Source: a virus. From it: a stretch of 22,628 nt of DNA. This document shows, piece by piece, positions 850-1,181 of this stretch (position 1 is its first letter; each line of letters begins with the position of its first letter). Below the pieces are notes generated by a model. The model was not told the origin of the DNA and did not search any database. It was given only the letters and a program-made list of their open reading frames with translations. Made by a program: the position numbers and the translations under genes. The DNA is taken from IMG/VR virus record IMGVR_UViG_3300037486_000672, positions 1-22,628 of that record; one strand, given 5' to 3'.

Positions 850-987
850 TTGACAGATCAACCCGAAGAAATTCGCCGCCGTCTCGAATTTTAAGAATTG
901 GCTGGGTATCAAACCGCTCTAGTTGACCCCGCGCCCGTTCCGGTCTACTCTAATCCCGCTCCCGCAAAACACGGGAGTCGGGCTTGA
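850..987 (+). pseudogene. Possible remnant of a small phage gene with an in-frame stop
   Basis: From a TTG at 850 the frame reads L-T-D-Q-P-E-E-I-R-R-R-L-E-F, then TAA at 892-894, then E-L-A-G-Y-Q-T-A-L-V-D-P and on to a TGA at 985-987. Both sides of the TAA look like one protein-like reading, which suggests a small gene broken by a single stop. There is no convincing ribosome binding site before the TTG. The second half overlaps the candidate promoter and first hairpin of the C4-like RNA. I do not recognise the product. It may be chance coding potential in a GC-rich leader. Confidence 0.25.
923..951 (+). promoter_or_regulatory. Candidate sigma70 promoter of the rha leader
   Basis: TTGACC at 923-928 matches five of six bases of the -35 consensus. 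With a 17-base spacer, TACTCT at 946-951 is a poor -10 (three of six); TCTAAT at 949-954 is a better -10 hexamer, but its spacing of 20 is too long. Transcription would start around 957-960, at the left edge of the first hairpin of the C4-like RNA. Position supports the call more than sequence does. Confidence 0.35.
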
Positions 988-1040
988 TCTCCCGAAATTG
1001 GAGCGCACCAGCGCCCCATGCGACACCAGGCGCTTTTTTT
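955..1040 (+). ncRNA. C4-like antisense leader RNA upstream of rha
   Basis: Three structures follow each other. The first is a strong hairpin at 955-982 (CCCG plus CTCCCG pairing with CGGGAG and CGGG, 7-base loop). The second is a small hairpin at 989-1003 (CTCC/GGAG). The third is GCGCC at 1011-1015 pairing with GGCGC at 1029-1033, followed directly by seven T at 1034-1040, a terminator-like end. Two segments are complementary to the downstream leader. Bases 984-1003 pair with 1094-1111: TTGATCT is perfect, then one mismatch, CCG, a short bulge and TGGAG. Bases 1004-1015 pair with 1059-1068, interrupted by single-base bulges. The order is antiparallel, as in the a'/b' to a/b pairing of the P1/P7 C4 RNA, which represses the icd-ant operon, and of the P4 CI RNA. 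Family assignment rests on layout and context, not on a covariance model. Confidence 0.55.
1011..1040 (+). terminator. Rho-independent terminator-like hairpin ending the C4-like RNA
   Basis: GCGCC (1011-1015) pairs with GGCGC (1029-1033) across a 13-base loop, and TTTTTTT (1034-1040) follows at once. The stem is short, so partial read-through into rha is expected, as in C4/CI immunity leaders. The alternative stem AGGCG (1028-1032) with CGCCT (1042-1046) places the T tract in its loop and would compete with the terminator form. Confidence 0.5.
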
Positions 1041-1140
1041 ACGCCTGCTCGTTATGGTGGGCTGTGCGAGGCACCCGCAAAGGTGGCCGGTGACTCCATC
1101 CGGTAGATCAACCTCGTACAGTCCGCCACCATCTGCTTGA
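1018..1140 (+). CDS. Small icd/ash-like leader open frame
   Basis: This is a 40-codon frame starting at ATG 1018, with an internal ATG at 1054. The product begins M-R-H-Q-A-L-F and contains [13 protein letters not shown], a pattern I associate with short Icd-like/ash-like frames found before antirepressor genes in many phages. Both target segments of the C4-like RNA (1059-1068 and 1094-1111) lie inside it. In P1, translation of icd is coupled to that of ant, and C4 pairing blocks both; the same design is inferred here. No strong ribosome binding site is seen before either ATG. It may be a translated leader rather than a functional protein. Confidence 0.35.
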
Positions 1141-1181
1141 TTTCGGTGTTGGCGGTCTCCAATCTTCCATGGAGTCCGGTC

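Follow-up and report, generated by a model that had tools for sequence, protein, structure and literature searches.

C4 Antisense RNAs and Their Leaders

In the sequence record of phage P1, the elements a1, b1, C4, a2, and b2 are annotated in that order; translation of icd-ant is repressed at a2/b2, and the a1/b1 site is marked as putative. Rfam models find C4 and c4-a1b1 in both P1 and Gifsy-1, and isrK in Gifsy-1. Modulation of the IsrK terminator by STnc1160 has already been suggested for Gifsy-1, by analogy with the CI RNA of P4 (PMC4825925), in a study in which phage P1 goes unmentioned. An attenuator role of a C4 leader was not found described in the literature searched, a body of work that lies outside the main papers on P1/P7 C4. 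Here, we describe a locus in which a C4 RNA very probably represses an antirepressor gene by blocking its Shine-Dalgarno (SD) sequence, and in which the upstream leader may form an attenuator.

A C4 RNA in Front of a Rha-KilAC Antirepressor Gene

The window is an entire virus record of 22,628 bases, itself a fragment, with the lysogeny-control genes falling outside the contig; no repressor gene was found in these 22,628 nt. A lambda-type portal is encoded in it. The regulatory region and the Rha-KilAC gene sit at the left end of the window (Table 1). The reading frame of the gene is intact, and its ATG is preceded by GGAG. RF01695 is the sole Rfam family above its cut-off across the whole window, and a full-length match of this quality indicates that the RNA is a genuine C4 antisense RNA, of the kind known from phage P1. 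This bears out the initial annotation, which had read the region as a C4-type immunity leader before a Rha/KilAC gene and proposed the covariance model as a check. Weak Rfam matches near the site to ybhL, SAM_alpha, and Ysr141 were far below cut-off and were rejected. A ranking of all window sites for the C4 core gave no information, owing to the high G+C content.

The predicted mature form of C4 starts with GGU, as at an RNase P site, and its start and length fit RNase P processing to a 77-nt RNA. GGW is the apparent processing site of the A. baumannii C4 RNAs (PMC5320573), and TTATGGTGGG at the C4 start is common to P1 and the window.

Table 1. Features of the C4 locus and the gene behind it, in window coordinates.
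Feature	Positions	Strand	Sequence or evidence
Likely sigma-70 promoter	923-951	+	TTGACC (923-928), 17-nt spacer, TACTCT (946-951); read from the sequence
c4-a1b1 match	945-998		RF03163, 35.7 bits, below cut-off 46.7 (permissive Rfam scan)
isrK-like leader RNA, two hairpins then terminator (C4 target region)	958-1040	+	Rfam isrK RF01394, 41.0 bits, below cut-off 50
a1 target, in hairpin loop	984-990	+	TTGATCT; 7/7 Watson-Crick pairs with a' (1105-1111)
b1 target, in 5' arm of antiterminator	999-1003	+	TGGAG; pairs with CTCCA of b'
Predicted antiterminator hairpin	1000-1017	+	GGAGCGC-ACCA-GCGCCCC, one A.C mismatch; present in minimum-energy fold
Intrinsic terminator	1010-1040	+	AGCGCC-13-GGCGCT + T7; arms 1010-1015 and 1029-1034, T7 1034-1040
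C4 antisense RNA	1050-1133	+	Rfam RF01695, 61.1 bits, full length (1-87), cut-off 45
Predicted mature C4	1056-1130		75 nt
C4 b' loop (anti-SD)	1092-1099	+	GACTCCAT; 8 Watson-Crick pairs with 1169-1176
C4 a' segment, unpaired in C4 fold	1105-1111	+	AGATCAA; Rfam alignment and fold
a2 target	1137-1143	+	TTGATTT; pairs with a' AGATCAA, one G-U
b2 target, covers SD GGAG (1171-1174)	1169-1176	+	ATGGAGTC; pairs with b' GACTCCAT
Rha-KilAC (ANT) antirepressor gene, 242 aa	1182-1910	+	Pfam Phage_pRha 2.4e-18, ANT 3.5e-20; PHROG 63 anti-repressor Ant 1.6e-48

The a' and b' segments are complementary to a downstream target pair, a2/b2, which lies over the ribosome-binding site of the Rha-KilAC gene and had been overlooked in the initial annotation (the a and b labels follow P1 usage). 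The a2 site begins 7 nt past the predicted mature C4 end, and in most relatives about 8 nt separate the end of b2 from the start codon. Taken on its own in the window, the a2/b2 duplex does not outperform shuffled sequence (p 0.15). From this complementarity, C4 is predicted to control the downstream gene, whose product, a Rha-ANT protein matching the PHROG anti-repressor Ant, is a predicted antirepressor.

A second target pair, a1/b1, precedes C4 and would share one transcript with it. The leader that carries this pair is termed isrK-like, rather than isrK, on account of its sub-cut-off score; the pairing that the c4-a1b1 family stands for is borne out by a direct swap test (see below), despite a score that is likewise below cut-off. 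The nearest relative, L150, scores 43.6 bits for isrK and 45.7 bits for c4-a1b1. The candidate promoter has 8 of 12 consensus matches, and is thus weak; a promoter scan returned no entries, this one lying under its threshold.

It had been proposed that an RNA at 955-1040 acts on the sequence downstream of it. The Rfam matches reverse these roles, with C4 at 1050-1133 as the regulator and 955-1040 as the upstream target and terminator; the short hairpin and seven T residues seen at the end of that RNA are the intrinsic terminator of Table 1. Two pairings between the segments had been claimed. The pairing of 984-1003 with 1094-1111 (TTGATCT/AGATCAA perfect, a mismatch, CCG, a bulge, and TGGAG/CTCCA) is upheld by comparative evidence and contains the a1/b1 duplex, which in the window alone exceeds dinucleotide shuffles modestly (z -2.3, p 0.03) and in which b1 contributes just 5 bp. 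The pairing of 1004-1015 with 1059-1068, which draws on the 5' arm of the C4 stem, is at chance level (z -0.01, p 0.46) and was discarded.

Comparative Evidence for the Pairings

Because the window alone beats shuffled sequence only modestly, the case for the pairings is carried by comparison. The nearest relatives (L150-L152) have identical C4s, a Rha protein 70% identical to that of the window, and the same layout. In L150, a' has changed from AGATCAA to TCTGCTA together with a change of a1 from TTGATCT to TAGCAGA, and b' from CTCCA to CTCCG together with b1 (TGGAG to CGGAG) and b2 (ATGGAGT to ACGGAGT). These are compensatory changes of the sort that the initial annotation had suggested looking for in related prophages; at the downstream target, compensation is complete for b2 and partial for a2.

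The pairings were further assessed by exchanging C4s and targets among 91 viral and genomic C4 loci, those of P1 and Gifsy-1 among them, with locus L200 left out. The mean number of paired bases was higher with the locus's own target than with swapped ones at every site: 7.29 versus 4.69 for a1, 7.00 versus 5.05 for b1, 6.74 versus 4.47 for a2, and 7.35 versus 4.91 for b2, the observed mean being reached in 0 of 10,000 permutations in each case. The permutations ignore relatedness between loci, which should improve the swapped fit rather than worsen it. The L150 changes and the swap test together support all four pairings at the level of sequence. As the best fit of a C4 tends to be to the targets of its own locus, a single genome could harbor several of them.

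A Predicted Competing Hairpin in the C4 Leader

A recognizable intrinsic terminator precedes C4 in 58 of the 91 leaders. In 39 of 42 leaders of a first set, the 5' arm of the terminator can alternatively pair with sequence at or just after b1, and in 37 this sequence overlaps b1. The upstream arm of the resulting antiterminator is dispensable for the terminator, yet it matches the shared arm of its own locus better than those of others (hydrogen-bond score 13.35 versus 8.98 when swapped, among 26 distinct arms; 0 of 20,000 permutations). Measured against shuffles locus by locus, the antiterminator reaches p < 0.05 in 8 of 42 leaders, and p is 0.12 in the window; given how seldom it is significant in a single locus, the case for it rests on the family. 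In the L150 leader, the terminator is one pair shorter, with GGCAC in place of GGCGC, and the antiterminator sequence is unchanged.

Blocking b1 in silico in 51 leaders raised the mean terminator probability from 0.56 to 0.86, compared with 0.59 when other positions were blocked, in energy models that treat isolated leaders and ignore co-transcriptional folding. The control in these calculations consisted of sliding positions; a single control position used in a pilot had also raised the terminator of the window (0.88). With sliding positions, the terminator probability of the window rose from 0.36 when free to 0.97 when b1 was occupied, and 98% of other blocked positions gave less. The corresponding values for P1 were 0.74 and 0.93. 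The Gifsy-1 terminator had a probability of 0.99 whether b1 was blocked or free; it is thus predicted to form regardless of b1, and attenuation may not be universal. As b1 overlaps an antiterminator that competes with the terminator, C4 bound at b1 should cause early termination, and the folding models suggest that it would promote termination before C4 itself.

Models of C4 Action

In the mechanism that we propose, a single transcript from a promoter near 923-951 would span the leader, C4, and the Rha/KilAC gene, and C4 (~1056-1130) would be released from it, probably through excision by RNase P, to judge from its GGU start. The b' loop and a' segment of C4 would bind b2 and a2, and with the SD sequence covered the antirepressor would remain untranslated. 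The same segments would bind a1 and b1 upstream; b1 being the 5' arm of the antiterminator, its occupation by C4 would free the terminator arm, transcription would end near 1040, and C4 would limit its own synthesis. The short terminated RNA could serve as a decoy for C4. The generality of this upstream step is put forward tentatively: we give slightly less than an even chance to the proposal that C4 leaders, that of P1 included, are attenuators, in which pairing at b1 removes the antiterminator arm, C4 thereby restricts how much of itself is made, and the short RNA (IsrK in Gifsy-1) is a by-product able to titrate C4. The decoy part is the weaker, because IsrK was reported to stay toxic when additional STnc1160 was supplied (PMC4825925), a co-expression result that a simple decoy model would not predict. 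What is added here to the suggestion made for Gifsy-1 is the competing hairpin and its covariation.

C4 might instead act on translation only, through a2/b2 at the SD sequence, with a1/b1 and the terminator setting a basal level independent of C4. In the P1 record, repression is assigned to a2/b2 and the label of a1/b1 is only putative, about a third of the C4 loci are without a leader terminator, and that of Gifsy-1 is predicted to be insensitive to occupation of b1. However, the coevolution of a1/b1 with C4 is roughly as strong as that of a2/b2, b1 overlaps one arm of an antiterminator, an arm whose changes track those of the terminator arm, and the blocking of b1 lifts the predicted terminator well above what blocking elsewhere achieves. 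We regard a purely translational role as a serious possibility, albeit one that falls noticeably short of even. It appears unlikely that the terminated leader RNA (958-1040) is itself the active regulator and, as reported for IsrK, switches the read-through mRNA in trans from a silent to a translated form; this resembles the roles assigned in the initial annotation, with the sign of the effect inverted. In Gifsy-1, translation of anrP rises 139-fold when IsrK is supplied in trans (PMC4825925), and an isrK-like leader ending in a terminator is present in the window. The Gifsy-1 data are also explicable by titration of C4 by IsrK, however, and the Gifsy-1 leader is followed by a C4, which is equated with the ~80-nt STnc1160 by position and size only.

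The short b1 duplex, the G-U pair in a2, the pair lost from the L150 terminator, and the weak promoter of the window could also be read as marks of a decaying remnant, in which the pairing is still readable but no longer functions in the phage of the window. The intact Rha-KilAC frame speaks against such decay, and the paired compensatory changes relative to a locus at 70% protein identity point to selection on the pairing, making a remnant very improbable. A role of the module in a lysogeny switch is plausible by analogy with P1 and Gifsy-1.

Distribution of C4 Loci

Of 50 viral records that contain Rha relatives, 5 carried a C4, and none was found beside the Rha genes of six known phages, so most Rha genes are without a C4. 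Two classes, reached via genomes of Pseudomonas trivialis and an Acidocella, were sampled; C4 occurred in 24 of 369 genomes from one and in 2 of 190 from the other. Among the proteins downstream of other C4s (54 scanned), AntA was found five times, Rha and ANT three times each, and Bro-N twice. A relative, G001, has an SU10-type portal, as opposed to the lambda-type portal of the window, indicating that differently built phages can carry the C4-rha module. With the window element, the genes known to lie behind C4 gain one for a Rha-type antirepressor, and the phage that carries it is built differently from its nearest relative.

Several further arrangements were observed. G001 carries a second C4 at 50242-50327 (L154, L155), with different a' and b' segments and 7 kb from the first, which precedes a 115-aa ORF followed by genes for replication protein O and a DnaB-type protein. 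In Pseudomonas trivialis, P. simiae, and P. abietaniphila (G057, G082, and G073), C4 lies, by position, directly before 14 of 20 DUF6124/DUF3077 genes; one such gene (G082:C8:75760) is about 500 bases away from its C4. No mention of DUF6124 was found in the literature searched. In a single Chromobacterium haemolyticum genome (G076, locus L129), the C4 matches number 39, many of them below cut-off. At L239 (G349:C9, 1700-3092), four C4 RNAs are packed into 1.4 kb; a 570-aa ORF lies downstream of them, and beyond it an integrase-like ORF. Going by gene names read from the translations, this locus looks like a satellite element.

Comparison with P1, Gifsy-1, and P4

The P1-like design recognized in the initial annotation is confirmed by a layout that P1 and Gifsy-1 share with the window. 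As in P1/P7 C4 (immI), the window has the C4 fold, an RNase P-type start, and a b2 site at the ribosome-binding site, and the order promoter, a1, b1, C4, a2, b2, gene is that of P1. The P1c4 promoter (TTGACC-17-TATAGT) lies 31 nt from its -10 to a1, against 32 nt in the window, and a2 starts 4 nt past the C4 end in P1, against 7 nt from the predicted mature end in the window. For P1, too, one can draw an antiterminator that overlaps b1. The two differ in that the P1 target site precedes icd, with ant after it, whereas that of the window directly precedes the Rha-KilAC antirepressor gene; the C1 operator Oc4 of P1 is without an identified counterpart in the window. The Gifsy-1 arrangement IsrK, STnc1160, orf45, anrP resembles the window in having an isrK-like leader with a terminator, a C4, and an antirepressor operon. 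In the window, however, the isrK match is below cut-off, there is no antQ upstream, no separate orf45 lies between C4 and the antirepressor, and the antirepressor itself differs from that of Gifsy-1.

The CI RNA of P4 (seqA/seqC) is a processed antisense RNA, as the C4 of the window is predicted to be; like C4, it has one target upstream and one downstream, and in P4 it acts on transcription termination, a likeness drawn from its published description (PMC4825925). The downstream target in the window is the SD sequence of an antirepressor gene rather than replication genes. Antisense-dependent termination of the P4 CI type is predicted at the upstream target of the window from the competing hairpins. 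If true, attenuation would give the putative a1/b1 site a function, and would unite P1 C4, Gifsy-1 IsrK, and P4 CI in one scheme.
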